DNA of 64,000 nt. Source: Owenia fusiformis. Its lineage: Eukaryota; Annelida; Polychaeta; Sabellida; Oweniidae. The position numbers and the translations under genes were made by a program. The notes under the pieces were generated by a model. The model was not told where the DNA came from, did not search any database, and saw only the letters and a list, made by a program, of their open reading frames with translations. Positions 23,001-61,394 of this stretch are shown here, piece after piece. Every line of letters starts with the position of its first letter. The stretch's first letter is position 1. The DNA lies in the NCBI GenBank assembly GCA_903813345.2, contig CAIIXF020000001.1, positions 23,455,915-23,519,914 of the forward strand. Direction: 5' to 3'.

Positions 23001-26000
23001 ATGAGTAACCTAAGGACAATCAGATGCGTTGTGAACATTTGCAAAACCCATTTTGGCTCATTATCAAAAAATCAATTACAAATATATTTTCATAACAATT
23101 TTGAAGATTTAAAAGCCACTGTTGTTGTCCTGACATTTCCTAGAATGAAACCTTCCAGTCCAGCACATATGTATTTTCAATAAACTTTATTTTCAATAAA
23201 CCAACGTTACATGTTTCTCACCTGTGTTCTATAGCAGCTACAACAAAGCCATAGCTGGCGACATCCATCAATAAGGTTGTATTTGTGGTACGATTGCCCC
23301 CCATACCATGGGAGAATACAATTACTGGGTACTTGTGCCCACGTAGTATTGAGGCCTGCCACAATACTGGGGCGTACACATCTCCTAAAATACAAATAAA
23401 ATTGTGTGCATTTGTTCAACAATGTCCTTCAAGGTTAAAAGATTAATGTTCATTCACGATATATTTGGCAATTTGGGAAACACTCTGGAACAATAAATTA
23501 TGTTTTTTCATCTATCATTTTAAAGATATTTTCCAGGATCTAATTCAAAGATACAAATGTTCAATTACATTTTTGGAATAAGGGATCAATCAGAAATCAA
23601 TTTAATCATTCTTAGAAATAACATGATATGGACTCCGCTAAGTCAATAAGTGTTTCTATAATCTTGCAAATTGAGAACTTAACTCTGATTAAAGGAGAAA
23701 AAATTCTTAGATCAAAATGGAGAAACTGGCATTCTTCCTTGTCTTGTTTCAGTCTGTAGAAGAACTGATAACATAACTGCCACAAGTGTTGCTAAATATG
23801 ACGGAGTGTTTCATATGTTAGTTCCTTCCTGAATTTCTGATATTTCATCTTTACCAGATTTTCATACGTAGAGTAAGAATTTAATAAGATATGTATTAAG
23901 CATTTTTAATAAATCGTATAACTATAGAGGTAATAAGCAAATATCAATAATAAGGGTTATGCATATGATCTCTTATTTATCTAAAGCTGATCATGAGTCG
24001 TATGACATTTATATTAATTCAAGGCTGATTTTGACATTCACAAAATACCCTGCAGTTTAATTACAATTACAGTGCTTTTACCTCCGAAATATTGTAACAA
24101 TTTCCCGAACACCTTGGCAGGCCAATTGAGGAAATCTGCATAACCCTCAAAGTAATGTTTCCGTGGTAACCAAAGGGGCCATTGAAGGTGCCTTTCCTGG
24201 AAAGAAATGACAAAACTAGACATTCTTAAACAAAAACAGTATGACATTTTGTTAAATTTAATTGATGACCTATAAACATTTTATAATACATGTAAGGGAT
24301 GATACAATGGATTGTAAGTACATGTATGATAATTGTCAATAATTGTCAAAAACAGTCAACCTGCCAGTTATAACAGCTCAATAAAAGTAGCTAAACAAAT
24401 ACCAACAATAGAAGATCATAACTGATTCATTGGGGAACCTGGGATTCTGAAGTAGATAAATTTTCAGGAAGCAGAGGGAGTCTGTATTGATTCTTTCAAG
24501 AATTCTATATGAAGAACCAAGGAATGACAGGTGGTTTATAGACCTTCCTTTTCAGAAAATAAGTCCAGGGATTTTCAGATTCTCATACAGATAACTTTAT
24601 GATCCAAGGGATTTAACCTTGGGGAGGACATAAAGCTTAAAGCGGAAATAATGTCAGGTATCCTAATCATCATTATATGTAGTTCCAATACTACTGAATA
24701 AAATGCAATAAGTTGAAAATCTTGTTATGTGTTAGTTTTTGTATAATATTGAAAATAAAAATAATAAATTGACCCAGTGACCCAGTTGTCTGTTGGACGG
24801 GGCTCGCCATATTTCCCTCAGAGACCCGGATGTAGACCGGAAGTGTGACGTTTCTGCGACCTGAGCCGATATAAATGACAATTGCCATTTTCTCATTAAA
24901 CCACATTGAAACAATTCATCTCTACATCTAATGGTATAAGTAACATTTTTAATCATTGAAAAGCTTGAAGATTAGTGTTAAAGCTTAAACTGCCTATTTG
25001 TTCGCTTCTGAAATATATAGCAACACTATAATCAAATCAACCTGTCACTTTAAACATCAATATAGACTCTGTTGCAAACATTATTTTCGCATTATACTAA
25101 ATGCACTATTCATCAATGACATGGAGCAACAGATACTTTGACCACTCCATCATTTGTTATTTAATTGAAGGTCATCAGTTGATCCACCAGGTTTATATTA
25201 GTTAAATTAGCTAGTTGCTTGGAAACAGTTAGGAGGTGCTACCCTGCCTACAGAGTGCCGAGTCTAGTTAACAAAGCTCTCTTTTAAGAAGAGAAATTGA
25301 ACAATGCAAAGGGTAACCAGGGGCAAATTCTGTTGATCAAATTTAACAAAAGGATTATAAAATATGATATAAAAGAAAAAGTATTCTTAACATATAAATT
25401 GTTCTTTCAAGATTCTTGACGTCATTCTTGAATTTTATTTCAACGACTAAAAGGTTTTATAAAGTTTCAAGAGAGTTAAATGTCAACAAATATCACAATG
25501 AAAGAGGGTTGCTGATTTTCACAGTGAATGGGAAGGATATTGACACTTAGCATACACTTTTGAGCTTTTTTTATAAAATGCCAATGATGTGTTTACACTT
25601 ACAGTAAATTCAATGTTTATGTGGGAGTTCAAAAATGTATAGCGACCCGTATATTTTTACTCATACATTTAACCTCAGAGCAACATAAAACTCTCTACGC
25701 TGAATTTAATTCCTAAAACCTACAAAATACCTGAGTACATGAGCACCCATACTTAATTTAACCCAGTATTTATCCCAGTATCTAAGGATGTACTGTCATG
25801 TGCCATTTTTGAGCTCACTTAACAGTTCATGTATATTTACGATTCCTTCAAGGGAACAGTTTACGTAACCATATAATGTCATCTCTAATTTGAACAAAAC
25901 AATTTAAATGTAGTAAACTTATGTAAGAATTAAGTCAATCATAATTAGCCAATACTATGTGCATATGAAGAGGTAGCCACATTTCTGATAACAATATAAC

Positions 26001-29000
26001 AATAAATGCGTCATCAAATTATGAAAAAGATCAGAAAAGTATTTTTATTTTGAGGAATTCACTTTGAAATGGTGACCAAATATACAGGTTTTACTGTACA
26101 GTAAACTGATCAGTTAGAGTGAAAAAGGAAAATAGCTAGCCATATGAACATGGTTAACACTGGGTGGGTCTCAATCATAAACTAAAGCTTAGAGTGCACT
26201 AACAAATGTTGTACATTACTCCAACTGTCTCATAAAAGCATCCCTGATATAGTCAAATAGAAAGATTGTGTCCAAAATTTGAAAATATCATGAGAGCAAA
26301 GAGATTTCAATAAGTTGTTAAAAGTTCTCATATCTCAAATAAAAGCAATATAAAAAGTCCATCTCAGGGTATTACTAATTGGAAAAAACCAATGAATTTA
26401 CACATGACATCCTGAATAAGCAGTAAGTGGGCGTATCAGTACCTATACCAAATATATTACATGAGTAACCAAATACCAAAAAACACACTTAATGTTTCTT
26501 CAAAAATTTAGAAATTGAATATAAGTATACATGTTGAAAGCACTGATACATCACACTAAGTAATATACAAATCGGTTGTATGAAACTTTTAGTATTAATT
26601 GTGTCATTTTGTATCAGAGTCTGTAGTTTTACTTTTTGTTTTTGTTAAATTGACTGATACATCATTTGACATAATTTAATTTAGTCAATAAAAAATACAA
26701 CACATAACACTATATCAAAACATACTATTACAAGACATAAGGACAATTCATAATTATTTCCTGATAGTTGTCTACTATATACTGCATTGGGAGTCATACC
26801 AATTGAATTAAAACAATTCTACCTGAGGAAAAATGTACATGACGATGATGATGTGAAGGTGGATTGACTAATCTAACATGGATGTTCAAATTCACCTTCT
26901 GGGTTAACATTACGGATCATGAGATATTTATGATGCTATTTTATCATCATGTACTTTGTACTGAGTACTGCCCACTTAATTTATGTGTACATGTTTCCAC
27001 CTACCTAGTAATGTCAAAAGATAACATTCTTTAAGCAGTGCACTTTAACCTGGGTTTGTCACTTAAGTCTTTCCTTTTCATTAATTCTGAATTAATTTCT
27101 GACAGAATTAATTATTGCAAGAATTATATTATTCAACTCAACTAATACTTTACCTATTTATGATCTACATAAATAGCCCATTATTTGAAAATTAAAATTT
27201 TGGATAAATAAAGTTAAAATATGTAAAACTGAAACACAATTTGGGGTAATACCTATAGAAACAGGATAATTCAAATCACCAATATAAAATCTCTGGAATC
27301 ATTCTGATGAAACTCATTTCAAAACATGTGTTTTATACAGACATAAATTCATGAACTTTGTAAAAAAAAATAATGACAAAATACAATAGGACATCAGCCA
27401 CATTTGTTTTGAATTTTCAAAATATGCCCCTGCGTTTTTCTGTAGCAAGGTTTTACCAAGGGGAGCTTTTTACACTAAAGAGCTAAAAATTTATGCAAAT
27501 AGTGCTCAGAATGGTGTAAAACTTCATGTTTTGAAAGAACTTCTGGCTTTCCCCCTCCTAGCCATGGGTCTGCTGTGTTTTGAATTGTTTTTCATCTACT
27601 TCACTAAATGTTAAAATAAAACACCATTTCGGGTATGTCAGACGTTTCATTAGAAACAGCAAACAGGCGATTTTCACTTGTTTTCACAAAATCACATGTT
27701 GTCATAAGGGACCTTTCAACTTTTATGATTTCCATAATTATTTTTTTCTATTTTCTCCGTCCCTGACATACAAATATAGTGGAATTTGTGTCCATAATGA
27801 TAAATAGGAACTTGAAAATTTGAACTGATATTCAAATGTTAATGCCGACTCTTCAAATGTTGAGGTGATTTGGGAGCCCGATTACGCCGCAAGGAGGATT
27901 GGCTCCCAGAATGCAACATGACACGTGCCAGCTTTCAAAATGCCGTTCCACCATTTTGAAACCTGTCACGAGTAAATAAGGTTAACTGATGTTGCATTCT
28001 GGGAGTCAATCCTCTTTGGATCACAAACATGCTGATTCATGAAAACATTCGTTCGATTTGGTAGGAATTTATCCATCATTTGCAGGTATGAAGTTTTGGA
28101 TTCACTTATTGTGCTACTTACCATTATTTTTCTACCGCTTGGGAGAGTTTGAGACATGAAATCTAGAATTTAGCTCATTGTGACAACTTTTGATGGTTGA
28201 GGTTTATTATGATGTCTCCGACTGTAATTATGTTCACCACTTAAGGTTCGGCTGGAAAGTAACATTTTGGTAAAAAATTGCTATAGGCCTACCTGCACAT
28301 GTTATTTTCTGGTACAAAATTAAGTATGAAGTCATGTGTGTATTTCTTTGCTTTTTTCAGGAAAGTATCATTACACTGTCTACTTTTAGTAAACCTGGAA
28401 ACAGGTCAATGGTCGTAGCTCCTGTGTTGTCTGGAAACTTTGAAAGAAAATTTGGAAAAATAGAAAGTGTGAAATATCAGAATTTCCATGAGTTCCCATT
28501 GAACTCCTACTAGATATTCTTAAAGAAGACAATATAATGATACTTTTCTGAAAAAAGCAAGGCAATTGACACATGTCTTCATACTTTATTTTGTACCAGA
28601 AAATAACATGTGCATGCTGGTATAGCAATTTTTTACCAAAATGTGAGACCCTATCTGTTGCAAGACTAACGCCTGGCGTAACCGTCACCATGTTATATAG
28701 TGTTTTTTAAGTAGCGCAAGGATCCTGCCATGACCGTGGTAATGTTATCGTGAAAGCCTGGTATAACCGCGACAATGCTGTATTATATTGCAATGCCTGC
28801 CATGACCGTGACAATGTAATATAGTTCTGCAAGGCTTGGTATGACCGTAACAATGTAATATGGTACTGCAAAGCCTGGCATGACCGTGACAATGTAGTAT
28901 AGTATTGCAAGTTCAGGTATGAGAGTGGTACTGTAGAAATTTACGATTAGGACTGCTATAACCGTGACAATGTGTATTGCAAAGCATTGCATGACCATGA

Positions 29001-30393
29001 CAATGTATTATGGGATTGCAAAGCCTGGTATGACCGTGACAATGTAATATAGTATTGCAAGGCCAGGTATGAGGGTGGTAATGTAGAGATTTAGGCTTAG
29101 TTCTACTATGACCGTTATAATGTATTGCAATGACTAGTAAATATGTATGATATTATGCCAGGAATATCCTTAACAATTCTAAGTGATCCTCATTACAATT
29201 AAACAGTTTAATACTATGATCATGGTGTTTAACTACCTTAATCATGTCAAAATCAAAATTACTACTACATTAATATTCACATTCGCTTATAAACCACAAT
29301 AAAGGCTACGGTCGCGCCAGGCTTCCACGATAACACTTCCAGGGTCATGACAGGCCTTGCAATAGAATACAGCATTGTCACGGTTATACCAGCCTGTCAC
29401 GGTTATACCAGGCTTACACGATAACACTACCACGGTCATGGCAGGATCCTTGCGCTACTTAAAAAACACTGATTAACATGGTGACGGTTGTGGCAGGCGT
29501 AAGTCTTGCAATAGATAGCATGTGCAAAATGTTAGGCTACTTTCCAGCTGTACCCATAGGCTAAGGGTTAAGTAATAGTAAGCTGTATATATAAGAGACA
29601 GGTCCACAAGTAAGATTGAAAATTATTCAAATTTTTTTAGTCTTGGCACTAGTTCTCCTTACTGGTATCAAATTTTATTCCAAAATTTCTCCAAAATCTT
29701 CTTCAAAGTGTTTTTCAAACTTATATCATTGTTTTTTTCAAATCTTTATCTAAAAACTGCATATTATACTGCATATAAAACAACAACTATGGAAACCTAC
29801 AATTGCCTGGCAAGCTGAAACTGATTGTCACTGGTGGAGGTCAGGGAGGTCAGCAGTGACCAATCAGATCACTTGTTTACTAATGAACTTGCCAGGCAAT
29901 TGTAGGTTTTCAGAAATTCTCTCTTTTAGACAGCATTATTCACTCTATATCATCTGACTGAGTTTCAATCTTAGGTAAGAGCTACAAACTATCAATTTTA
30001 TATCAACTCCCCATGGCTTTTTGAAAATAATACACTAAATATTGTTGAAATCTCCATCTTAACAAGTGGTCTAAGTCAGAGTTGTTCACCTGTCTCTTAT
30101 ATATACAGCTTACTATTACTTAACCCTTAGCCTATGGCTGTACCTAAGGCGTTCTAAACTGAATAGATCTATATAAATGTCAAAGGCAAAGTCAAACTTA
30201 CAAATATATCAGTCGACTGCGTCGGGTAGAACAATCTGACGAACGTTCCATTCTTATTGGGCTCACTCATCAAGTCTAAACATCCAACGGTGAACGGCCC
30301 TGTAGGAATTGGCAAATGCTTTCGTTCAATCCTTCTCGAATTCCTATTCGGCTGCTTGAAAAGTCCCATATCGATATCTTCTTTCCTCCCCAT
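17089..30393 (-). CDS. PAFAH2: platelet-activating-factor acetylhydrolase (PAF-AH / group VII phospholipase A2 family), intracellular type
   Basis: Eight minus-strand exons join in phase to 421 residues: 30393-30202, 24196-24082, 23384-23222, 22419-22251, 20323-20207, 18669-18578, 18105-17905, 17305-17089. The family removes the short sn-2 acyl group of PAF and oxidised phospholipids. Landmarks: TGPFTVGCLDLM (31-42), FVRLFYPTQ, PLWLPRKHYFEG, oxyanion-side FSHGMGGNR (126-134), AAIEHRDGSAS, nucleophile elbow VVGHSFGG (Ser266), acid IALDGW (Asp289), GGCHQSQTDF (His354). Ser-to-Asp spacing of 23 matches human PLA2G7; Asp to His is about 10 residues longer. There is no signal peptide, and GCHQSQTDF resembles PAFAH2, so a cytosolic enzyme is likely; the N-terminus lacks a good myristoylation signal. 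The last 24 or so residues (after AVVGFLRK) lose family likeness, and a GTAAGC donor lies at 17156-17151, so a further 3' exon is possible. Ortholog (PAFAH2 or PLA2G7) is not settled. Confidence 0.88.
18775..18990 (+). repeat. dispersed repeat family C, copy 2
   Basis: Direct-orientation relative of 10330-10550, in the PAF-AH intron beside the exon that carries the active-site Ser. Confidence 0.65.
19692..19868. mobile_element. pogo/Tc1-type MITE, second copy
   Basis: Ends ACAGTAAAACCTGTGTAAGT and CAAGTTTTACTGTA, with GGAACA and TGTTCC repeats inside. Same family as 15716-15900; TA flanks fit a TA target. It is in a PAF-AH intron. Lone ends of the family are near 22870 and 26080. Confidence 0.7.
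19906..20100 (+). repeat. dispersed repeat family B (GCCCGTAGCCAGG)
   Basis: Begins GGCCCGTAGCCAGGATTTGC and carries GGGGGTTCAG and GTGCTCA-like blocks. Relatives follow at 20131, 22594 and 27420, all in the same orientation. Confidence 0.65.
20131..20170 (+). repeat. dispersed repeat family B, short copy next to a PAF-AH exon
   Basis: CAGGCCCGTAGCCAGGGGGG and a few following bases; the copy ends about 37 bases before exon 20207-20323. Confidence 0.55.
20382..20399 (+). repeat. 18-base G run
   Basis: Unbroken G tract in a PAF-AH intron, C-rich in the transcript since the gene is on the minus strand. Length in the assembly may be unreliable. Confidence 0.9.
22594..22740 (+). repeat. dispersed repeat family B, copy in a PAF-AH intron
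   Basis: GGTCCGTAGCCAGGATTTGC, then the GGGGGGTTCACTT and TGCTCAGAATGGTG blocks. Confidence 0.65.
25240..25315. repeat. small MITE-like repeat (TACCCTG...AAGGGTA)
   Basis: Shares GAGTCTAGTTA and GCTCTCTTTTAAGAAG with 40485-40572; the ends are inverted CTACCCTG and AAAGGGTA. Confidence 0.5.
27420..27560 (+). repeat. dispersed repeat family B, diverged copy
   Basis: Contains AAGGGGAGCTTTT and GTGCTCAGAATGGTGTAAAA in the family order; the 5' end is worn. Confidence 0.5.
27894..28014. repeat. short hairpin in PAF-AH intron 1
   Basis: Bases 27894-27918 and 27990-28014 are reverse complements at 24 of 25 positions (GAGGATTGGCTCCCAGAATG on the left), around a 71 bp loop. Probably a small MITE. 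Confidence 0.65.
28262..28644. repeat. 383 bp hairpin with arms of about 120 bp
   Basis: Bases 28262-28382 pair with 28523-28644; both contain GGTAAAAAATTGCTATA and CATGTTATTTTCTGGTAC in opposite orientation, with scattered mismatches. The spacer is about 140 bp. Confidence 0.7.
28720..29137. repeat. 39 bp minisatellite, about 11 units, with higher-order pattern
   Basis: Units begin TGGTATGACCGTGACAATGT or close variants at 28759, 28798, 28837, 28876, 28915, 28954, 28987 (after a 33 bp unit), 29026, 29065 and 29104. A divergent AGGTATGAG unit follows a standard unit at 28915 and again at 29065, so a three-unit block has itself been duplicated. Confidence 0.85.
29554..30137. mobile_element. 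584 bp foldback/MITE with 50 bp perfect terminal repeats
   Basis: Bases 29554-29603 and 30088-30137 are exact reverse complements over 50 bases, starting CCATAGGCTAAGGGTTAAGT. CTGTAC flanks both ends (29548-29553, 30138-30143), a 6 bp target duplication. An inner 22 bp perfect pair lies at 29793-29814 and 29888-29909. No coding frame is seen. Confidence 0.8.
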
Positions 30394-31003: not shown

Positions 31004-34000
31004 ATGGAGCTTCATTTTTGGATGGTTCTGGTGCAGATTATGACTTTGGAAGTGATTTGGGGGAAAATAGGATTTAAAAAAGACTTAAATATGAACGTGG
31101 AATTCCCACCTACTATAATACGACACAGAAATGAGAATATTCCAGCCGGACATCTTAGACCCCTCGGTAAGATTACATGCAAATAAATAAGAATGAACGC
31201 GACAGTGATACGTGGATTGCGTCCCAAACTTTCTAGGATTCAATGAACCATGGATGATACATGTATATTCTATTAACTTTTATTCTTATGTTTTACAAAT
31301 ACGTTTAACTGATCTACAAATTTTCAGGTTATTCTTTCTTTCACTGCGACTAAAAATATTTTACCCGCTAGAAAACCAACTGAAGATACATGTAGGCTTA
31401 CTGTACATGCAAATCTGGTGAAAGTATACCAGGTGAATAAACTCTAGAAACTCCATGGTGTGACAAATTACAGAGGGCTTAGGAAAGGCGGGGTAAACAA
31501 AGACAAAGAGCAAAATTTATTTACTTGCACGCGACTTTCATTTTCTTCATTTTCTTGGAAACATGAACCTGGGGGTCTATTTTGGAATTGGGACCTGTCG
31601 TAACTTACGATTTTGTCAGCTCAAGTCACTGTTCCTCTTTCAATGAACGGCTGTTTCCAAAGAGTCGTACCAAAATCGGCCATTGTCAAAAACGCTCGTC
31701 TTTTTAATGACTACTGCAAGGGGGTGGAAATATACAGTTCGCAGCTAAATTATATTAGAACAACTACGTGTCTATTTATTCGGATGTAACCAAATATTAT
31801 ATTTGTTTATGTTACACCATGGACTGTATGATGTAATTATTTGGGAATTATAGATTATGATCAACAGCATACATTTGGATTTAGATGATGATCATATTTC
31901 TATCGGAAATCACTAATTCAATCTTAACCCTGAACGCAGAGTTTAGTTTTAAACTAATGAAGCTAGCTTTTAAGAAGCTAAGTCATCTGATGTAAAGGAT
32001 GATCTTTCATGTGCAATGTATTTATTTTATCTCGGCCTATGTTTGATGTAAGACGCTTTCATTAAAGAGGGAGCATGGTTTTCGATAATTGCGTTTTATG
32101 CCTAGGTCCCATTTGCTCCGATTCATTGGCCGGCGCCCGACCGTTGTAGTATTTTGTTCAAAACTGATTTCAACTTGCTTCAAATTGACCAAACCTTTTT
32201 TTAAATCATGTACAAGTTCCCAGGAGTTCACAAGTGACCTCAAATTTAAGATTTGACCTTCAATTTTGAACAAAATGCTCAATCGGCCGGGCACCGGCTG
32301 ATGAATTGGGGCAAATGTGACATAGGCTTTGGCTTTGCATGAATAAATCGATCCAAATAATTAAGCGATATTTTGTTTTTACATATCCATTGTTATTACA
32401 GGCTGGCAAAGAAGACCAGAGGGCAAGATCACAGAAGAAAAAGAAATGTTAAAACCCCAGAAGTTTTATTCTCGTTTTGTAAAGAACAAGAAGCCTGTTG
32501 TATTTCGTGGAGTCGCTGATGAAGTTCCTGCAATGAAACAATGGGAGAAAGATTCAACCTTAGATAAGAAGTGTGTTTGTACAATAAATTCTCCTAAACT
32601 GCTTTTAAAAGTGACAAAAGTGACAATACCACATTAGGGCCTAGTATGAAATTCATTTTCATAATCTCTCGAATTTTCCTTGATCATGACATACATGTAG
32701 TTTAGCCCGACACTTGGCCTTATTGTCAAATCAAAAAATCATTTACATTCTCTTTTTAAGGTATGGTAAATTAGATGTTATGGTAACAGTAAAAAACTCA
32801 ATGTTGAAATCGACCGGGCCGATCAAACTCAAACTGAAGAAATTCTTGAGGGAGTACGAATACGAGAACTGGTACTTAGCTACTACAACTCCACATGAGA
32901 TGATGCATGAACTCTTGGTAAGGCATTGTCGCAACCTGATTAGAATACAATGAAATAAAATACAATCACCTATGATCAACTTAGCTTTAAAGATGTTGAT
33001 TTAAGAGCAAAAAAAGGCTCCAAAACTTAATAAAATATGTAGTTTGGATGTTCATTTATGTCTGTGGATTATATTTTATACCACAAACACTTTATAAATA
33101 CCTGAAATTTGCAATAAAAGTGCCCAAAAATTGTTGTTTCGAAATTCCCCATTTTTCCTGTATCGCGCTAGTCACGTGACCATTACACGTAGCAGTCAAT
33201 GTACAGATATTACAGTACATATAATATGTTCAATATGGCAAACATCAGCGATTCTGATTCCCGGGTTCTGGGAAATGACTATATAAATCGGCGAGAGGGT
33301 GTAATTTGAATGAAGACAATTTAAGGATATGACGGAGAATCAACTAAAAATGTGAGTTCTGGAATGAAGACCCGTTGCCATTGACTGAAGCGATACTATT
33401 ATCATACTCAGTTTGAATCTAGACGCGGAAAACAGATTATGAAAACAGGTTTTCTGCAAAGTTATCAAATTTAGAAGATATGGATCTTGTTTTTGAGTGG
33501 CTTAACAAGCATTTAGATACCAGACTTGGCGCTATCTCTTGTCAAATACATGCACTGGACTTGCAGTAAATTGGCCATTGCAAATTGCAAAATCAGATCG
33601 TCAAATTAATCGCTTCGTTTTTAAACCTACGCTTCATATCTTCTTCCAAAACTTTAGGATTCGATAGAGATAAGTTATAACTTGTACAGGAAAAAATGGC
33701 AGATCCTACCTTAATTTAGAATCGCTGATTTCTCTGGACAAATTCCGAGAAGAAATTGTTCAACATCGCGATCACCCCAGACAACATGTCGCGTGCGTGT
33801 CACTCTGAACTCACGTGATAAAATACGGCATCTTGATTGGTTACTACTCGTGTTGTCATGACGTGAAAAGCAGTAGTAAACACTGAATATGTTAATGAAC
33901 TGCCATATATGGAACAATTGTCTTTCTGATTGGTTAACTTTACACGCCTCCTAAATGAATATAGTAGTCGTAGTAAATGATTCATTGATAACTCTGAAAG

Positions 34001-37000
34001 TGGGCGTGACCAGCTTCATTTTGACACCAAATTCAAGATGTTTCAAATCAAAATGGCCTCGCAAGACGAGGTTGAAATATCAGTAATTTGATACTGATAT
34101 GGTCTACGATAGATCAAAATTGACTGCCCCGCGTCACATGTCACGTGAGCCTATATTTGTTGAAAAATGAAAGAGATAGTGACACTTTTTAATCTTAAGT
34201 TTATACCAATATTACAAACACATATCTATTTTTTTCATTATATATTTATTTCTTCATAATACATACATTTGTTTTATACTACATTGATTTATTTTTGCAA
34301 AACCTTTGCTATTAGATCTTTAACTGAATTGAGATAGACATGATCTTTACATGATGAATATATAGCAATGCGTTGTGATACAACAAACACTCAACAAATA
34401 TCTCTGCTAAGGTATCGAAATGACGTCAGTCAAAAAATAAACATTTTTCCAAGAATTTTGACAATTTTACGCTGACGTCATTATGACGACTTGGTATAGT
34501 GTCTTGACGATGTAATCGTTGTCACTAATAAATAATTTGATACGAAAAATTAAAGATTTTCAGCCTAACCCTTAAAGCTTCTGATCAAATATCACTCTTT
34601 TTAGATATTCTTTTTGAAGAAAGACGTAAATATATATCAGAGACAAACACGTTCGCATTCTTGAGTGGAGTATATCTTTTTGGTAACTTTTCCCATATCC
34701 CTGACTTTTTTACAATATTAGATTATTCATTTCTTGCGAAAATGTTTTTGAAATGTACGAGTTATAATAAAAGTTGTAGCAAAATGAAAATTTTGGACGT
34801 TTTCTCCCACTTTCACTTTAGTTGCCCAAGTGCCTGCGATGCAGCACCATGAGAAAGAACCTCGTTGAGAGTGAAGTTTGGATGTCTTCTGGTGGAACAA
34901 GTTCTACGCTTCATTACCACGCAGACCATGACATTCATTGTATATTAGATGGGCGCAAAGATTTCATCCTCATCCATCCAAAATATAAATCTGATATTAC
35001 TTTTGTTGAGAAGGTATTGGTCGTCTTTTCCCTTATTAGTGATTGTAGTTTAATCATAGTCAAATTCGTAATCATATTTCAAACACAGACTTCTCCTTCG
35101 AAAGACTACGGGACATACTTGGGGTGGCTACCTACTTTGGCAACGTACATGTATGTCTTCGTATATAAACCAACTACCTAACGACAACTTAGCAATAACA
35201 CGAATAGTTCCACGCTTTTTACAATTTCTGATTTGTTACTACTTGCGGATTCACGACAGTTTCAGACTACCATGATATCCAGGAGAAAGTAGTAATTTAC
35301 GAAGTCAATCGAAAATGGTAGTCTCCCGGGGGAAGTCTCAAATATATGTTCGTATATCAAATATATATTCGTATATCTATATAAAGGTATTATTATGATC
35401 AGTTTTAACTCTATTTTATACTGCAGAGTCCACATTCAGGCTCTGGTCACTCAACGGTAGACGTGGATATGGTAAACGCATTCAAAGACTCAAAACTTGC
35501 TGCGACTCCATGGCACTACACCACACTTCTTGCTGGGGATTGCATCTTCATTCCAGCAGGTTAATCTACGAAAACATCTTCTCCATCCTTTTTCCTTCAT
35601 CTCATATATATGCTGAGAAGCAATAAAGAGTACTTGCTGTATTATGTATTATTTTAGTATAAATAAACTTTCTCCATCATCATAATTTTCACGCTGGTTT
35701 TTTTGTAATGAAATGAGGCCATGAAAATTCATCATATTTTTATTTCTCTTTTACAGATTACCTACATCAAGTACGCTCTTATGGGCGAAGCATTTCCTAT
35801 ACAGTTCTGTGGTCCCCCACACCCAAGGTTGACATCAAGGACTGTAACGAAGAAGTCGAAAATAAATTCACTTTGCTTACCGATGCTTCATTTATGTGGA
35901 CTTTCGCCGATGGTGACAAGGTATTGTAATATTTTGCAGATTTTATCCGAACAACCGCACTTTATGTGAAGTAGAATAAAATATGTGCGTTCACAAAATG
36001 ATGGAAACTGTGGATGCTCGTATGATTCACTTGATCTGGAATATGGAACTGGTATCCATATTCACCCGGGGTCTCCAGCATAGTAACAAAGATTATTCCA
36101 TAATAACATGTTTTCCCTGGGAAAATAACAGGGAATAAAAGTGTTATTTGAAAAATCCCGTATCAGATCCCGTATCAGCCAAAATCCCGTATCAGATCCC
36201 GTATTGGATCCCGTATCAGCAAAAATCCCGTATCAGATCCCGTATCAGAAAAATTGAAAAAAAAATATTATGAAATAAATAGGTTATTGATGGTCGTGAT
36301 GGAATATGGATTTATTCCTTGAGAAAATATGATATTGGCCTCAGAAAATATCATATTGACACTCGGGCTATCGCCCTCGGTCAATATGATATTTTCCTTG
36401 GCCAATATCATATTTTCCCTCGGAATAAAATCCATATTCCATCCCTCCCATTGAATAACCTCTATTTATTCCATGATGGTGAAATTCCCTGCAATCTGAT
36501 TGGTCCACGTGACTTAAATATATTCTGTATTTACACGCACTTTCCTGTGTCAATGACGTCAGCGTTGGGATACGGTCCAGTATCCCAACGCCCCAGATTT
36601 CCATCCAGGATATGACTGTTACTGAAAAAAATCAATGGCGATTACTTTGCACCAACGCATGCTTATCTTTGAATTTTGCTATAAATATCTGATTCAAATA
36701 TCAGAAACGTATACTGTGATCACCAGAATCAATAATTTTAAGAGGAAAAAACGCAAACAAAAAGCAAACAACAAGGACATAAAGATTTTGAAGGAATATC
36801 GATGTAAAATACCTCTGAGGTGAGAAGGTTGATCTGTTTCTCCGGCCCCAAGCCAACGGACTTGATTTAGGCGAATTTTATATGGGTAATCATGGAATAA
36901 AAACGTTATTCAATGATTTCTTGTGAAATACAGAAAATATTCTTCCCTTGAACGTCTGTATTTCACTCTGCTAGCGCATCGTGAAATACAACCTTCTCGG

Positions 37001-37703
37001 GAAGAATATTTTCTGTATTTCACTCGAATCATTGAATAACTTATAATATACGCATACATATAGTGAATTATATTACATATAGCGCCATAGAGCTGTTCCA
37101 AATTGCGAGTCCAAATTTAAAACATTCTTATCTTATTTTTGCAGTTGTTGTTCAACTCTAGACTAAATCCAGAAAGTACAAGGCAACATCTTCTTGGTTT
37201 GATGAGGACTGATAGCGAACTGTATTATGATCGCTTTCATCTATTCTACAACGAATCTCTTAGCGAGGTACGTATAACACTCTTAAAAACCAGAATATTT
37301 TTTAGTTTTTAAACCACAAGCGTTATTCTTAATTCAATGAATGGCGTAAATAGGAAAGAGGATTGAGCTTTGACACCCAAGTCTACATGTATTGCATGAA
37401 AACAAATTGCAAGAGGCAGTAATGACCAACACCTAAGAAAATCAAAATCAAAGTATCTATCTTAAACTGCGAACTTTACATATCATTCCTTGCCCCGTCC
37501 GACTTCCAATGTTTTAAAGCTTGCGTTCATTTCAGGTACGAGATGCACCAGATTCATCGGAAGTGTTTAAGAGCCTTGACCCAAACAACCAGGGTTTCAT
37601 AACCAGAGAAGCCGTTGAGAAGTTGGACAACATGCGACTCCAAGAACTAGCAGATGTCCTCAACAGAGCCCATGCCCATGGTCATAAACACGACGAACTC
37701 TAA
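31004..37703 (+). CDS. ER-lumen JmjC-domain oxygenase with EF-hand-like segment and C-terminal HDEL
   Basis: Eight exons join in phase to 422 residues: 31004-31166, 32402-32570, 32761-32917, 34822-35013, 35427-35559, 35757-35920, 37145-37267, 37536-37703. Residues 1-20 form a signal peptide (MELHFW, then hydrophobic). The JmjC core has WMSSGGTSSTLHYHADHDIH with His196-x-Asp198 as the first two Fe(II) ligands, GRKDFILIHP (Lys209, probable 2-oxoglutarate contact), and GDCIFIPADYLHQV with the third ligand His275. The Asp198-His275 spacing of 77 matches FIH-type hydroxylases. A CxxC (CLRC, 167-170) precedes the core. The C-terminus has an EF-hand-like loop (SLDPNNQGFITRE, 380-392; Gln at position 5 and Glu off register, so calcium binding is doubtful) and ends HGHKHDEL. 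HDEL is the ER retrieval signal. Likely a 2-oxoglutarate-dependent protein hydroxylase of the ER; substrate unknown. Human JMJD8 is also an ER protein but I do not see this as a clear ortholog. Confidence 0.86.
32100..32327. mobile_element. MITE with GCCTAGGTCCCATTTGCTCC ends, with a family A fragment inside
   Basis: Inverted ends (GCCTAGG...CATTTGCTCCGATTCAT and ATGAATTGGGGCAAATG...CATAGGC). The middle, near 32160-32265, resembles family A. It lies in JmjC intron 1, 74 bases before exon 2. Confidence 0.6.
32918..34821. other. JmjC intron 3
   Basis: No exon seen. CACGTGA/TCACGTG words cluster at about 33173, 33812 and 34141, and the block 33125-34160 has a higher GC content than its flanks, suggesting an old mobile element, but no matching ends were found. 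Confidence 0.4.
36153..36250 (+). repeat. tandem ATCCCGTATCAG array in a JmjC intron
   Basis: At least six copies of ATCCCGTATCAG with short spacers; one copy reads TATTGG. Confidence 0.8.
36271..36472. repeat. 202 bp hairpin around a CGGGCTATCGCCCTCGG core
   Basis: Bases 36271-36360 pair with 36380-36472 (arms contain GAATATGGATTTATTCC and AAATATCATATTGAC in reverse). The centre is ACTCGGGCTATCGCCCTCGG. Confidence 0.75.
36907..37041. repeat. 135 bp hairpin in the same JmjC intron
   Basis: Bases 36907-36952 (GTTATTCAATGATTTCTTGT ...) pair with 36999-37041 (... GAATCATTGAATAAC); both arms hold AAATACAGAAAATATTCTTC or its complement. Confidence 0.75.
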
Positions 37704-38244: not shown

Positions 38245-38748
38245 TGGAAGGTGGCATTTGTTTCCGATCTTATCATATATTTATATTTTGTATTGAGTTG
38301 AAGCTGGTGGGAATTTAATCGTTGAGATATTTGTAGATGTGTTTATTTTTGAGATTTCCTCTTTAATTCTTCATGCTTGATTTCCTTAATCTTTCATTTT
38401 GTGAGGGATATTTGTTTTTGAACAATCGGACTTATAGTTATTTAGAATTTATTCTTTAATACTTCTGATTTTACGTTTTAGTCATCCGAATTTGTCATGC
38501 GAACTATGTGATTTAGGAATAAATTATGTATAAGCAAGGGAATCACTCTTGGAGTGTACCTGTATTCACATGTACATGTGGAATTTTGATTCAGTAAACC
38601 TGCCAGATGGCTTTTTCCATCAGGATGCCATAGAAAATTGCTCAGAGTATAAAATAACAGTGAACTCAGAAAAGTAGAACATAAAACTCTACAATGAGGA
38701 TTCGACCTGATATATTTGTTAGAAGTAAGATTAATACATGAATTTGGG

Positions 38749-39807
38749 ATGCAAATTAAGAAATATAAACAATCTATGTATGAGGAGAGAATCGAGAATG
38801 AGAAATCAATAAAGTCCGGTGATGAAGTCGTTGCGAACATCAACATAGACATAGAGGACCGTCCACACAAGGCAACAGAGGGGATAATGAAGGAGAATGA
38901 GTCGTTGAGGTTGATGACGGGCTTCATGATGTTCACAGGTGGAGGAGTAGCATTCGGATTGCCCGGGGTGTTGTTCACGATACGAAATAACAACCCAAAC
39001 AATATTCTAACGTCCTTAGGTCCCGTTCTCATCTCGATAAGCCTTGTCATGATGGTTGGATCATTTATAGTGTGTACATATGCATTTGATGACTCTGACG
39101 ATGATGCCACGGACCGCAAATACAAATCACAATACCGGAAGGCATGCGTTGTGCTATTCTTTGGGGCTCTACTCTGTGTACCAGGGGGTGTAGCACTTGC
39201 TCTGTCCAGACACTATGGATTTAACTCGGAACATGCATTGTCAATAGGCGGCATCATCAGTGCTCAAATAGGCGGTGGTCTACTTGTATCAGGGTTGATA
39301 ATGTGTTGTGCTATTCGCGTGCGTAAGAAAATGACGAGGCGTATTGAGGACAAAGCGACCTCAGAAGAAAACCTATCGGGTTCACAAAGTAAGATGACCA
39401 TTAACCGTGGTGTTGCACGTTGGTCACCGGTGGATACACCAATGATGGACTCGGACGCAGACGTTTGTGACTGCGCTTATTGCCCTCGGCACGGCTTGAT
39501 GCTTACCGGCAGGCAACCAGAAGAAGAGGCAGAGCCCTGGTGTCCATTCAGCTCCAGTTCAGATTCCGATGGACGCGTTGATCCATTGATCGAAAGGATG
39601 CAATTAAGAGTGATGCAAGGACGGAGTAGAAAATGCCAGAGAGGCAAGAAAATTGGTAAAAAGGGTGCTGGTAGAAAGAATAAACGGAGACAGCAATTAG
39701 ATATTGATAGTGGTGATGATATGAATGACTCTGATGATATGGACGATGAGGGCGTTGATGCGTATGATGGAATGGTTCAAATAATTGGAGAAATCATGCC
39801 CATGTAA
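38749..39807 (+). CDS. four-pass membrane protein with charged, Cys- and Lys-rich C-terminal tail; family unknown
   Basis: One uninterrupted frame; the first ATG (38749, G at -3) gives 352 residues, a second ATG at 38776 gives 343. An in-frame TGA at 38695-38697 closes the frame upstream, though an upstream coding exon cannot be excluded. Four hydrophobic segments: around LMTGFMMFTGGGVAFGLPGV, ILTSLGPVLISISLVMMVGS, ACVVLFFGALLCVPGGVALA and ALSIGGIISAQIGGGLLVSG. The first and second pairs look alike (PG followed by an Arg a few residues on, a short polar loop, then a Gly-rich helix ending in Cys), so the protein may have arisen by internal duplication. The short N-terminus and long tail are probably cytosolic. 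The tail has CDCAYC, an EEEAE stretch, a Lys/Arg-rich run and DD/DSDD acidic runs near the end. No domain is recognised. Confidence 0.75.
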   Translation: MQIKKYKQSMYEERIENEKSIKSGDEVVANINIDIEDRPHKATEGIMKENESLRLMTGFMMFTGGGVAFGLPGVLFTIRNNNPNNILTSLGPVLISISLVMMVGSFIVCTYAFDDSDDDATDRKYKSQYRKACVVLFFGALLCVPGGVALALSRHYGFNSEHALSIGGIISAQIGGGLLVSGLIMCCAIRVRKKMTRRIEDKATSEENLSGSQSKMTINRGVARWSPVDTPMMDSDADVCDCAYCPRHGLMLTGRQPEEEAEPWCPFSSSSDSDGRVDPLIERMQLRVMQGRSRKCQRGKKIGKKGAGRKNKRRQQLDIDSGDDMNDSDDMDDEGVDAYDGMVQIIGEIMPM

Positions 39808-55300: not shown

Positions 55301-58300
55301 TTTCAAGAATGTAACTCATTATTCCATGACGTTTGAACATTGTTCTTCTGGAGACATTGGTTGACGTGAATGACTGACAAACGATTCATCGATTACCATT
55401 TCCATCTGAAAATGCCATTTTTATGTCACCACCAGAAGTAGTGACATATTGTTATGGTGTCCGACTTTTTTGTGGACGGCGGTTAGTGTTCGGCATTTTG
55501 GTGTTCGGCGGTCGGCGCCTAGCTGTAACAAATTCTTACGGCGTCTGTAACAAATGTTTACAACTTCCAATAACTGTTCAGATTGACTTCAAATGTTATG
55601 AGCTCCAACACATTTCTGCCAATATCTGTTACCATGACGACAAAGAAGTGGACGTTGAAGGTCAATAAATGTCTTTTTCAACTCACTTCAATTTTTTTCA
55701 AATCATCTACATGATCTCAGTAGTTCAACTCTGACTTTAGATTTGAGATTTGACCTTTGGTTGACCTTCATTAAAACCTCCGAAAGGCCAAAACGTTTTC
55801 AATGTCAAAGTAAATTGTATGTCAAACTAAAATCACAAACGGTGTTGGCAACATATTGAAGGTCAAAATAGGTCAATAAGGTATTTTTCAACGTGCATCA
55901 AATTGACCAAATGTCTTAGTGTTTTACACTTGTATGTATATTTGTATCACTGGGTTAAAAATCATTTTGGGGAAACCTGTTTTTTATTGCAGAGCACCCA
56001 TTGTAAAGGCCAAAGATGCGTCGGCTCAAAAATGTTTCACACCGCAGATATGAGGAAACCATCACAGATGCATCCAAAACACAAAGTAAAGGAATTGGCT
56101 GAAGACTTTCTCAAACAATATTATGCGCATCTAAATAAGTAAATATGAACATTTAATTCCAATTCAGTCCTACCTGAAAATGTTACTGTATCACGTAAAA
56201 TAATAGCTCCATGTTGATTTGTTGTTACATACTTTTTAAAATAAATTAGATTGTTTAAACTGTACAAGTCGTCACGTGATCATATATATCAAAGTGTTAT
56301 CATATTCTGAAGAAATTATTCATTTTCTCCACTCCATTACTTTAAAATCGAATAGAGCTAGCTCATTTTACTCAAAAATGAGAAGGCATTTTAAATTGTT
56401 ATCCATCTACTTTCAATAAGGTTGAATAGTGAAGAACATCTTGCCAGACTAAATTCAGTGACGACCAACATAGAGAAAACTGGTTATTATGAGCACACCT
56501 TCGATGAGTTACAATTTGGTGCCAGAACTGCATGGAGAAATGCACCGAGATGCGTCAATAGGATTTTTTGGAATGAGCTTCAGGTATTATATGGCCGTTT
56601 GACTTTTTACTTGCTTGTTATCATTTTATGAATTCTTTTAAATAAATGTTTCTAAAAGTGAATCAATCGGTGAATGATTTACTTATTTTCTGATTGATTG
56701 ATAGATTTTCAAAACACTCAATGGTAAAAGCACTTATTGATATTTTTCAGTTACTGGATGGACGAAAGTGTAGGTCTGCCAAAGATATGTACAAAGCCGC
56801 ATGTGAACATCTTGTATATGGCGGCAATGGTGGAAAAATAAGGTAATAATTAGGTCTTGCGATTCAACAATTAATTTCAGGCCGAATTTATCATGTGACA
56901 ACCTATCACATTTAAGAAATTCATGAATTGAAAACTGATCATGATTTGTTGAGTGTCCAGCTTTCTGTTTCTGACAAGTTGAACAAAATTGTTTTTTACA
57001 ACATAATTTGCATTGACTAATACTCAGTCAGAAAACCAGACATTGACTCACGTGGTGAATCTTAAATATCTATAAGAGGGACTCCCTTTACAGAAGCTTT
57101 GAACTGAATTTACACTTCTTAATGCTGAAATTGAGAGTTTATCCATACATTTTAAGAAAATAGGTATATCAAAGAAAATGTTAAGCCAAATACTGACCTG
57201 ATAGCTCAGAAAATTTTTTAAAAAATCGAATTTCTCTCTCCAGTCCTTGTTGCCCCTTTAAATTACCTGACGTGTCGCAAAAAGGTGGCGCATTTTTTTT
57301 AAGGGTATCGCGTGAATGTAACTTTGATTCCCCGGATTATAAGATAATATTCTAATTAAAGTTATATATCATTTTAAAGCTGTTTCGATGAAGTTTTTAG
57401 ATCAACTACACTCCGTTCACGATTCTTGCGCGTTCTTTTTAAAAAAAAGAGTTTTTACCAAAACATCTGGCAAATATCCCCTGTTGACACGTTACATTTT
57501 GAATTATTTTTCGTCTGTAAACGCTCATAACTCAAACAATATATGACTATTATACTTATTTTTCATCTTGATAAAGGAAGATGAAAGTTTTATTTCAAAG
57601 GATGAATTTTAGTAAGCGTCCCATATTGTGACGTCATAGAGTTTGAAAAATAGAATCTGTTGACAGCGACCTTTTTTTGCTCATTTTGTTACCTTCAACT
57701 TTTCAAGTAGACATTAAACAAAAAATACGAGATCAATTTTTAATAAATCATACATGATTATTTTGCTCTTAAACTCTAGTTTATTAATAAATAGTTGATT
57801 TTGTTCACAAAAGTATGTGTTTTCTGTTGTATGTGGAAAAGTGGAGGACGAAAGGTTTTCAAAATTCATTAAAATAGGGCTAATTTACGCCATTCGCCTA
57901 TTTTCAAGCACAGCAACACGTATACTTATTTCATCTAAAATATCAATTGATTTGTGTTTTATGATGCTCCTATCCCATTGTTAATACATATAGTTCTGGT
58001 CAAATATAACACTAATAATGTTGACATTACTCTTTTTATGATAAGTAATAACATTAACGTTAACGTTAATCAATGTAATATCGCTTAACATCCATTACAT
58101 GGTGCCATTAGTGTATACAAACAAATGGCAGATAAGAATTAACTTGAATTCCATAAAAACAAAAATGTTTGAAACCATCGATTTCTCAAGGCTGTGATCT
58201 CTCGAGAGGTCTCCGATATTAACCTTGTTATTTTGTTGTCTAATGATTTTGCCAAATTTAAATGTAATTGTTTTCCTATTTCCTTGTTTTGAATGAGACA

Positions 58301-61300
58301 TAAAAACATTCGATACAACACCCTCAGTTATTATCCAATGAGGACACTGGAAATAATCCTAACATATATTAATTATGTTTTATCAGCTAGCGGTTTCCTC
58401 ATCAGTACCTCGTCTGTATTCTAGAAAATCATCGCTTGGTTAAACATTGTTCTCGTGCCAAATAATCATGAGTCATTTCTAAGAAAATCTCATTGATGTA
58501 CAATGTAATATGGTATCCTTGTTTATGCATATGTTCGCCTTCATTTTTGTTCACTGAAGTCATATCATCTTTTGTTAAGGTTAACGTCCTGGTTGCTGAA
58601 GCCAGCTCAGATTCATCGGATTAAGTATTTTGCTCAAAACTGTCAAAACTGAATACAATTTTGAACAAAATACTCAATCGACCGCCGTCCGATGAATCGG
58701 AGCACATGTGACTCAGGCATAACATACGGGTAAAATATTTGGATTCTTTTTTGGTGAAAATGATGAAATTAAAAAGTTAAAAAGTTAAAAATTTCCCCAA
58801 CGTAAGTTCATCCATTTTGTTATAAAGACATTATAACAAAATGTTATTATCATGAACTTAGGTTATCATTTTAAGAATGAAGTCATTCTCGATCAAGGTA
58901 ACCTCATCGCCATTCACACCTCACACCTTGGGAGTGTGATGCACGACTCCGTGCCATGTGCAAATTAGATCAATTTTAAATGACAAGGCTAGTTTTACGG
59001 CAATGTTCACCGTGTCCCGGGTTTCACCATGTCATACTAGTTGATCAAGTGCAGATATTATTATTATTATTATGAGCTTTATTATACTTGTATCCCACAT
59101 TTGGGCAAAGTGTACAGCTTAACCAGAAAAAAAATGAAAAAGCTTAACTAATTATCTATATAGTATATTAACTAATCAAAGGGTGCTTGATCATTGCAAG
59201 ATTTTATTGGATGCATTTCGTGTTTTTTTCTCTCTCGATAAAAATATTAGATATATATTTTGCTAGTATATTATACAAATATTGAATTCTGTGGAGTTGA
59301 ATATCTGTATATATTTCTAAAGGTGTATTCACCGCAGCCCGAAGGGCGAGGTGAATACATCCCTAAGAAATATATACAGATATTAAACGATCACAGAATT
59401 CAATATTTGTTTTATTATTTCCTCATTAGTTTCAACGTATTTCCAAACGTTTGCCAATATTCTGTTATAAATCACGATCTCTGTCACACCATAATATAGT
59501 AAAAATTAGATTCGGATCTTCCATGTTAAAGTCCATAGTCTTCGTGCTTTCATTAGTTGACATTTTGAATACATTTGTAAAATCTTTATCCCGCGTTTGT
59601 TATACAGTATTGAACCTTTTCTTGGAAGGACTTCGTGATACAACTTCACCGCCTGTCATATCGGATGAAAATACGTTTTACTAAATTCCCGGGAATTCAG
59701 TGATGTGACGTCATTTTTAGTGAATACCACTATTTATTCAATTAAAATGACGTCATTCTTAGTGAATACACTCTTCACACGTTTTCTAAGCAAGGAGACA
59801 AGGAATACCTCTATATATTTTTAGTCACATGGTATCTAATTGACCAATGAGAGAACGAGTATCACGGCATGGAAATAATAATTAATATTATTCCCTCTGA
59901 ATTAAATAGAAACATTAATTTATGTTACACGTTATTCATGTTTTCTAAATTTTGACAGTGTTTTTTTATTTTATCCATGTAACTTGACCGAACATCTTTT
60001 AACTTATTGCATTCTAATAGGTAATGACATTCTGAACCGGTTTTCTTGTTACACATTAAACATTTTCTTTCTTCAATAGGGGTAATTGGTTTTGTGTAAC
60101 GACCTGTTTCGATTTCTAATTTATATGACATACTAAAATGTCAAACAAATGTAGTTTCTGTAAATTGAGATCATGTTCTAAGCAAGGAGATCGTGTTTTT
60201 CATTTTTATTGCATAAATAGATAATACAACAAGATACCTATTACTTCTTCAAAGGTAGAATGCCGTTAAACGTCTAATTTGGAAATGGTAGTGTCCAAAT
60301 AATGCAGAAAACCGGCAGAAAACAATGAGGAGCATTCGTTTTCCATATGAGAAAATAGAATGGTATCTACTGTTTTCAACTTGATTCCGTTTCAACGTAG
60401 CCCCCTTCCAAAACTGATTATTTACCACATTTTGGCCTCGACCCCCTTCCAAATTCTGCAAAAGAATCTGTATTCTCCCGTAATGATATTGGCGATTGTA
60501 GATGTACAATATTAACCATTTGCAGAAATAAATATTAATAACAATAATAAATGATAACTTCAAAGAAAACATATCAATTTTTATGATAAATGTTTAATTA
60601 TATAGCCATAATCAAAGATATAATTGTCTTAAATAAATTGCCATACCATACCTGGTCCTTTCAACTTAATATATCACCAATGTTTCTAGGTCAGTTGTAA
60701 CAATGTTCCCAGCCAGGCATAATGGGGAATATCGGGTGTGGAACAGCCAACTCATCAGATATGCTGGCTACAGACAACCCGATGGATCTGTCATTGGAGA
60801 CCCACTAAATGTGGAGTTCACAGAGGTACACAACCTTTGCTAAACTAGTTGACCTTTGACCTCATCTAGGAGCCGATAACTTAAGTGGCGATCAATACAT
60901 TTTGCAAATGACCCTCTGGAGTCTGGAGTCATAACATTAAACTTGGTAGAACTAGATTGTATATAGATGAACCACCATCGAGTTTTTTCCTTTTAGTAGA
61001 TCATACATCTAAATGAGAGTTATGTTCTGGAATCGAAAAATGTCAACCAATCTCCCATCAGTTGCCCTGGGCACAACCACGAACCTATGCCAGATTGCTC
61101 CTGTTGTCTAGGCTCAATTATATAAAACTCATTATTTCATTGAGCCGAGCACTAAATTACCAATGGGGACTGGATGTGGCTCGAGGCATGTGGGCATGAC
61201 CGATATTCCTAATACATTAGTTACACTAGTTATACGACTATGGTTATTTTTCAGATATGTCAGCGTATGGGTTGGGTTGGCAGTGGAGGCATGTTTGATG

Positions 61301-61394
61301 TTTTGCCTCTAATTCTTGAGGCTAACGGTGAAGATCCAGAGTTGTTCGACATTCCAAAACAATTTATCCATGAGGTGCACATTAAGCACCCAGA
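46322..61394 (+). CDS. NOS: nitric oxide synthase, N-terminal half of the oxygenase domain (gene continues past the window)
   Basis: Six exons join in phase: 46322-46441, 55993-56138, 56421-56583, 56751-56842, 60690-60825, 61255-61394, giving 265 residues before the window ends inside the next intron. NOS turns L-arginine into citrulline and NO using heme, tetrahydrobiopterin and NADPH. Seen: [17 protein letters not shown] (18-34), zinc-tetrathiolate pair Cys44/Cys49 (CKGQRC), EEHLARL, heme-ligand segment AWRNAPRC (Trp127, Cys133), [20 protein letters not shown] with substrate-side Gln194, [33 protein letters not shown]. The Met is chosen because an in-frame TGA lies 18 bases upstream and the context is good; exon 1 then encodes only 40 residues, so there is no PDZ or long N-terminal extension. 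Oddities: Cys133 is followed by VNR where the family has a Gly (CIGR/CVGR). The substrate Glu region and reductase domain lie outside. Confidence 0.9.
46665..46833. mobile_element. 169 bp mariner-type MITE next to NOS exon 1
   Basis: Left end ATACGAGGGGTTGATCCAAA, right end CCTCGTAT; only the outer eight bases are inverted. The left end has the look of mariner ends. It contains the second copy of a 105 bp direct repeat (46722-46826). Confidence 0.4.
46722..46826 (+). repeat. 105 bp direct repeat, copy 2, in NOS intron 1
   Basis: Second copy of the repeat at 46042-46146, with three substitutions. It ends where a mariner-like end (CCTCGTAT) begins. Confidence 0.9.
47066..47440 (-). repeat. dispersed repeat family A, inverted copy
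   Basis: Reverse-complement copy: AACAAGGCATTAACATGACA at 47066, then the CAAATCTGAC blocks, ending near the GCGTCTG-type sequence close to the 5' end. Confidence 0.7.
48128..49265. mobile_element. degenerate mariner-like copies in inverted arrangement
   Basis: At 48130 a mariner-style end reads ACAGGGTGGGTCAAAAAACC. The plus strand near 48989-49090 encodes [20 protein letters not shown], the kind of C-terminal stretch found in mariner transposases. The reverse complement of about 48430-48590 encodes a related but broken version ([12 protein letters not shown] then a stop). The two C-terminal halves thus face each other. Both are dead. Confidence 0.6.
49790..50045. repeat. foldback with repeated GCATATTCCGCAGGTGA arms, NOS intron 1
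   Basis: Outer arms AGAATCGATTG and CAATCGATTCT (near 49790 and 50032), inner arms 49830-49875 and 49946-49996, with extra short GAATATG...CATATTC pairs between. Confidence 0.65.
50046..52891. other. NOS intron 1, stretch without recognised elements
   Basis: AT-rich, short frames only; nothing recognised. Confidence 0.5.
52896..53511. mobile_element. 616 bp foldback transposon with about 128 bp terminal repeats
   Basis: Ends begin CACTGGTGATCCACTCGATT and stay alike for about 128 bases with around seven changes. CATA flanks both sides (52892-52895, 53512-53515), a 4 bp target duplication. A second inverted pair (53091-53149 and 53183-53241) fills the centre, so nearly the whole element can fold on itself. 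It lies in NOS intron 1 and has no convincing coding frame. Confidence 0.8.
54174..55019. mobile_element. 846 bp element with about 95 bp terminal inverted repeats
   Basis: The left end CACGCCTAACCATCGACAAG and the right end (reverse complement) agree over about 95 bases with about seven changes. No clear target duplication was seen. It is in NOS intron 1 and looks non-autonomous. Confidence 0.7.
55422..55920 (+). repeat. dispersed repeat family A, copy ending 72 bases before NOS exon 2
   Basis: Starts ATGTCACCACCAGAAGTAGT and keeps the 5' and middle blocks but not the 3' end. The tail lies just before the acceptor of NOS exon 2 (55993). Confidence 0.7.
58596..58720. mobile_element. short copy of the 32100-type MITE
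   Basis: Inverted GATTCATCGGA and CCGATGAATC arms with TTTTGCTCAAAAC and GTTTTGAACAAAA-like inner pairs, as at 32100-32327 but without the inserted middle. It is in NOS intron 4. Confidence 0.6.
59280..59407. repeat. hairpin around a GCAGCCCGAAGGGCGAGG core, NOS intron 4
   Basis: ATTGAATTCTGTG...GTGTATTCACC pairs with GGTGAATAC...CACAGAATTCAAT across the core near 59333-59352. The core shares AGCCCGA and GGGCGA with the core at 36361-36379. Confidence 0.75.
59925..60131 (-). pseudogene. non-LTR retrotransposon C-terminal fragment
   Basis: The frame reads [14 protein letters not shown], then [10 protein letters not shown] and [16 protein letters not shown]. This order (IE-GRY, C-x2-C, H-x4-C, then LR-x-Y) is the usual tail of endonuclease/reverse-transcriptase retroelement proteins. 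The Glu normally before His is replaced by Cys and no polymerase region is seen upstream, so it is a truncated relic in NOS intron 4. Confidence 0.6.

Follow-up and report, generated by a model that had tools for sequence, protein, structure and literature searches.

In 2017, human JMJD8 was presented as the first protein with a Jumonji C (JmjC) domain to be found in the lumen of the endoplasmic reticulum (ER) (PMC5684140). A conserved histidine replaces the aspartate of its Fe(II) site, and because of this substitution Yeo et al. doubted that the protein is either a hydroxylase or a demethylase (PMC5684140). The activity is disputed: JMJD8, with its site given as H179/H181/H248, was also reported to demethylate an AKT1 peptide, an effect essentially lost upon changing H179 and H181 to alanine (PMC9820096). 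The excerpted part of a review on JMJD8 calls the activity unknown and makes no mention of KDEL. Two other oxygenases are relevant here: AspH, an ER-luminal 2-oxoglutarate (2OG) oxygenase devoid of a carboxylate ligand, works with two histidines only (PMC6817910, PMC13168262), and the D201G variant of FIH was called catalytically viable (PMC6817910). The gene analyzed in this study lies within a 64,000-nucleotide stretch of Owenia fusiformis DNA (contig CAIIXF020000001.1, positions 23,455,915 to 23,519,914), referred to below as the window. Its predicted product, the window protein, is most likely a soluble ER-luminal protein with a 2OG-oxygenase fold and an atypical metal site, and looks like a variation on the known ER JmjC type rather than a new system.

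Gene and domain structure

The JmjC gene is real and present in one copy in the window. Its eight exons, between positions 31004 and 37703 of the plus strand, join in frame to encode 422 residues, in agreement with the initial annotation. All seven introns are of the GT-AG type, with pyrimidine-rich acceptors and matching phases; two or three have weak splice donors, GTGTGT and GTTAAT among them. The start, exon 8 and the stop codon share a single open frame, and the protein ends in HGHKHDEL directly before the stop. Local tblastn detected no other JmjC copy within the window (best other match E 0.15). The introns, together with the nitric oxide synthase and PAF-acetylhydrolase exons nearby, point to an animal gene.

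Pfam model Cupin_8 (PF13621) matched residues 73-294 with an E value of 4.7e-27 (95.9 bits against a curated cut-off of 27.4), bearing out the JmjC core. The C167-x-x-C170 motif, initially placed just before this core, is present but lies inside the match. A phmmer search against solved structures returned JMJD5/KDM8 as the best hit (from 9.9e-12), followed at a distance by JMJD7 (0.0012), TYW5 (0.013) and fly JMJD7 (0.18). JMJD6 and AspH are not among the 23 distinct sequences matched at E<=1; AspH further differs in being membrane-anchored, in carrying tetratricopeptide repeats and in using two metal histidines where the window protein would have three. Alignment scores against the window core, each compared with 300 shuffles, were 150 for JMJD5 (z 28), 76 for human JMJD7 (z 11.6), 72 for fly JMJD7 (z 8.1) and 62 for FIH (z 7.2). 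JMJD5 is a nuclear/cytosolic protein. It shares with the window protein the distal-histidine motif FIPxxYxHxVR, but the two cores are only 26% identical (pairwise alignment), and the window protein adds an N-terminal hydrophobic stretch and a C-terminal HDEL tail.

Structure prediction without an alignment gave nothing usable (predicted local distance difference test, pLDDT, 30.0; predicted template modelling score, pTM, 0.18). An AlphaFold2 model built with six viral-contig relatives reached a pTM of 0.45 and a mean pLDDT of 41.5. Among the best 50 Foldseek matches listed for this low-confidence model, JMJD5 chains filled the first 21 places (best 1.8e-14), ahead of TYW5, FIH and JMJD7. Because the model is weak, this result supports the family only; the ligand geometry that the initial annotation had proposed to read from a model is beyond its reach.

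The search of NCBIfam gave no match at E 1. No relative was found in the viral_contigs set with the window protein, its core or a Bacteroidota alignment, and a scan of genome_contigs returned a single, distant Bacteroidia locus. In the open-licence PMC literature, judged by titles, nothing was found on a JmjC protein with EF-hand, signal peptide and ER lumen, nor did such a protein appear under JmjC/KDEL/hydroxylase/2-oxoglutarate, invertebrate or mollusc JmjC plus EF-hand, or KDM8/JMJD5 evolution. In that same literature, JmjC and HDEL occurred together only in a rice grain size context, jumonji and KDEL retention signal only in myeloproliferative disease, and a three-histidine JmjC gave no match.

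Some observations concern proteins on viral contigs. IMG/VR contigs carry JMJD5-like members (loci L056-L061 and L068), most of them with an extra N-terminal region. On another viral contig (L044), two adjoining open reading frames of the minus strand (1190-2269 and 3893-4933) are 43% identical and present a distal-His-like motif before an HYD motif, an order opposite to that of JmjC proteins, as if permuted or fused.

With a best 11-residue mean of 2.13 on the Kyte-Doolittle scale, the N-terminus of the window protein is hydrophobic to a degree equalled by none of 342 internal 40-residue stretches and by 114 of 5000 shuffles. Judged by hydrophobicity only, a signal peptide is plausible. At the other end, HDEL (residues 419-422), already reported in the initial annotation, is a signal of the [KH]DEL type; the chance of its occurrence, given the protein's own composition, is 2.3e-5, and that of any [HKR]DEL about 9e-5. 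The segment preceding it had been described as EF-hand-like. The resemblance to an EF loop is there, at residues 382-393, but not an EF-hand: Pfam EF-hand models gave 15.3 bits at best against a cut-off of 30, with glutamine at position 5 and alanine (Ala393) at position 12. From these residues the element is read as a degenerate, vestigial half. Since one degenerate loop that lacks the acidic residue at position 12 would hardly bind Ca2+ unaided, the calcium sensing suggested initially is poorly supported, and the tail was rejected as an EF-hand Ca2+ sensor on its loop residues. Among solved structures, the C-terminal 129 residues match best to FKBP14, which resides in the ER and has EF-hands and HDEL, at a non-significant E value of 0.25. 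The Smith-Waterman score of this pair (73) was reached in 0 of 2000 shuffles, the partner having been chosen as the database best. FKBP14 has a pair of EF-hands and a peptidyl-prolyl isomerase domain; the window protein has a single degenerate loop and lacks that domain.

Assignment of the metal ligands

The initial annotation had assigned a complete Fe(II) triad to His196, Asp198 and His275. These letters exist, but a register that takes His194 as first ligand and puts His196 at the aspartate position is better supported. In phmmer and MAFFT pairwise alignments with JMJD5, His194 falls on the first ligand histidine and His196 on the ligand aspartate, the interval from Trp183 to Lys209 being aligned without a gap. 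Both registers were scored with fixed anchors (BLOSUM62, gaps 11/1). The His194 register was ahead in all four comparisons with human JMJD7 (76 versus 71), fly JMJD7 (72 versus 61), JMJD5 (113 versus 100) and FIH (62 versus 45), as well as in six out of six viral-contig Cupin_8 proteins, four of which are close kin (by 15-21 units). It was thus preferred by 10/10 references with a 13-residue H-to-G spacing, by 5-21 units, and was also picked by MAFFT with either the animal or the viral set. Against these references, too, the stretch between Trp183 and Lys209 needs no gaps. Only this register places a Ser/Thr residue, Ser191, three positions before the first histidine (H-3), where FIH has Thr196 and JMJD5 Ser318, which we take to be 2OG-pocket residues. 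Lys209 (H+15) falls in both registers on the family lysine of the 2OG pocket, presumably represented by Lys214 in FIH; Tyr149 aligns with a JMJD5 tyrosine. The pocket roles of the Tyr, Ser/Thr (H-3) and Lys (H+15) residues are those established for FIH and JMJD5. The outer metal histidines, 194 and 275, are kept. Altogether, the alignments suggest that the site is probably His194-x-His196...His275 and not the canonical His196/Asp198/His275. The sequence thus lends no support to an intact, canonical hydroxylase site for Fe(II). Because the aspartate position is probably a histidine, the protein cannot be taken to sense oxygen or iron, as had been suggested initially.

The explanation we favor, with somewhat less than even confidence, is that of a soluble ER-lumen Fe(II)/2OG protein hydroxylase combining a JMJD5-like core, a vestigial EF half, HDEL and a non-canonical iron site. 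The putative signal peptide would direct the soluble protein into the ER lumen. There, the double-stranded beta-helix core, retaining Tyr149, Ser191, Lys209, His194 and His275, would hold iron through a His-x-His...His (or two-His) site, with His196 standing where the ligand aspartate is expected, and would hydroxylate proteins of the secretory pathway. HDEL would ensure retention through retrieval by the KDEL receptor. As the precedents of JMJD8, AspH and FIH D201G go in both directions, the histidine-for-aspartate change neither proves nor excludes an enzyme.

Several points weigh against this explanation. The signal peptide would be an atypical one, with Glu2, Gln11 and Glu16 and without a basic start. 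By analogy, the substitution is the very one that made Yeo et al. doubt that JMJD8 is a hydroxylase or a demethylase (PMC5684140). The compared set is without close animal relatives, which leaves room for His196 being peculiar to this protein or resulting from a single wrong base (CAC in place of GAC). Finally, a set of 32 Bacteroidota Cupin_8 loci (31 distinct proteins), which have two extra residues in the loop following HxD, is split: the His194 register is ahead in 17 of the 32, by 1-5 units, and behind in 15, by up to 20. MAFFT with these 32 loci selects the His196/Asp198 register, and does the same with 11 plus JMJD5 and FIH.

Rather unlikely, in our view, is that the window protein has the JmjC fold but no catalytic activity, and is retained in the ER to bind a partner or to serve chaperones as a cofactor, along the lines suspected for JMJD8. 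The histidine at the ligand position would fit with it, as would Asp200, which stands where FIH, JMJD5 and JMJD7 have Asn. JMJD8 interactors do include folding factors, although the authors warn of possible overexpression false positives (PMC5684140). However, drift would be expected to erase the 2OG-pocket positions and the two outer histidines, all of which are kept, and AspH and FIH D201G function without the aspartate (PMC6817910, PMC13168262).

Unlikely as well is that the initially assigned register is correct after all, with a canonical His196-x-Asp198...His275 triad flanked by two compensating two-residue indels; the protein would then be a 2OG oxygenase of the ordinary, active kind that resides in the ER. 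Besides the Bacteroidota alignments and scores, this interpretation is favored by the canonical motif being the usual state of the Cupin_8/JmjC family, and a two-residue slip would preserve the in/out alternation of the strand. Yet it loses in every one of the relatives with the 13-residue spacing, puts Leu193 where Ser/Thr is expected at H-3, and requires two gaps versus none for the His194 register. The AlphaFold2 model provides no independent check on this point, because its input alignment already had the His194 register.

Relationship to JMJD8 and JMJD5

JMJD8 and the window protein are alike in their (predicted, for the latter) location in the ER lumen and, in the better-supported register, in the histidine that stands in for the aspartate among the Fe(II) ligands (PMC5684140, PMC9820096). 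They differ in sequence: the alignment score with the window core is 36 (z 1.5) for a human JMJD8 sequence that has its histidines at the printed positions 179, 181 and 248; this is near background and far from that of JMJD5. JMJD8 ends in its JmjC domain and is not known to carry an EF-like tail or HDEL. The best match of JMJD8 is JMJD6 (2e-10), and the two group together (98/97) in a tree of 24 rows.

The window protein sits on a very long branch of this tree (3.13) and belongs to no starred group; the JMJD5 placement is drawn as an open fork. Four groupings were tested with the approximately unbiased (AU) test. The uncorrected p-AU was 0.045 for window+JMJD8, 0.267 for window+JMJD8+JMJD6 and 0.285 for window+JMJD7; window+JMJD5 is found in the best tree at 75/83, unstarred. 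The tree is without TYW5, HSPBAP1 and close animal relatives and therefore places the window protein only loosely near JMJD5/JMJD7, with a window+JMJD8 clade weakly disfavored. These results agree with the earlier view that the protein is not a plain JMJD8 orthologue. That it is the diverged JMJD8 orthologue of this organism, having the same metal site, seems very improbable. Such an origin would account for the His-x-His...His site printed for JMJD8 and, by labels, for the same compartment; against it stand the alignment scores, the affinity of JMJD8 for JMJD6 and the p-AU of 0.045, tempered by the window+JMJD8+JMJD6 grouping not being rejected and by the length of the window branch. Least probable of all is a partial artefact, with a first or last exon that is not part of this gene or a wrong base in codon 196: the exon joins are read from genomic DNA, some donors are weak and the tail has no significant match, but the intron signals and phases, the single frame uniting start, exon 8 and stop, and the rarity of a terminal [HKR]DEL by chance speak against it.

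If the window protein does combine a JMJD5-like core, HDEL and a JMJD8-type site, it would offer another, independent case in which the activity of such a site can be tested, and would raise the question of whether oxygenases lacking a carboxylate ligand are repeatedly selected for in the ER environment. It is possible, if doubtful, that it represents a second, JMJD5-derived ER-luminal JmjC lineage. This lineage would have exchanged the ligand aspartate for histidine independently, as JMJD8 would have done from a JMJD6-like ancestor, and would act in the secretory pathway as a 2OG oxygenase with three metal histidines. The ER lumen would then favor loss of the carboxylate ligand, with AspH as a third case.

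Features of the gene and of the window

Table 1. Exons of the JmjC gene and other features of the window (positions within the 64,000-nucleotide stretch).
Feature	Position	Strand	Residues and remarks
Exon 1	31004-31166	+	1-55; start codon; hydrophobic N-terminus (MELHFWMVLVQIMTLEVIWG), putative signal peptide by hydrophobicity only
Exon 2	32402-32570	+	55-111; Cupin_8 begins at residue 73
Exon 3	32761-32917	+	111-163; Tyr149 aligned to the tyrosine of JMJD5 YLAQ
Exon 4	34822-35013	+	164-227; C167-x-x-C170
Exon 4, better-supported register			Ser191 (H-3), His194 (first metal ligand), His196 (at Asp position), Lys209 (H+15)
Exon 5	35427-35559	+	228-272; GDCIFIPA motif
Exon 6	35757-35920	+	272-326; His275, distal metal histidine; Cupin_8 match ends at 294
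Exon 7	37145-37267	+	327-367; linker; N362, sole N-glycosylation sequon
Exon 8	37536-37703	+	368-422; degenerate EF-like loop DPNNQGFITREA (382-393), His-rich stretch, HDEL (419-422), stop
Tandem repeat, intron 6 of JmjC gene	36155-36249		12-base unit ATCCCGTATCAG
Larger minisatellite	28753-29130
Open frame	38698-39807	+	369 residues; about 1 kb after the JmjC gene
PAF-acetylhydrolase exon frame	23221-23415	-	PAF-AH_p_II 7.5e-18
Nitric oxide synthase exon frame	56395-56628	+	Pfam NO_synthase 1.6e-20
Nitric oxide synthase exon frame	60670-60840	+	Pfam NO_synthase 1.9e-16
Nitric oxide synthase exon frame	61213-61395	+	Pfam NO_synthase 1.9e-15
Three frames	5105-7393	-	No Pfam match at E 0.01

A tRNA scan and a search of Rfam at gathering scores gave no match in the window. 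The three minus-strand frames near its left end may be exons of a single secreted protein. The open frame that follows the JmjC gene contains hydrophobic segments and shows weak similarity, below cut-off, to TMEM100/PIRT.

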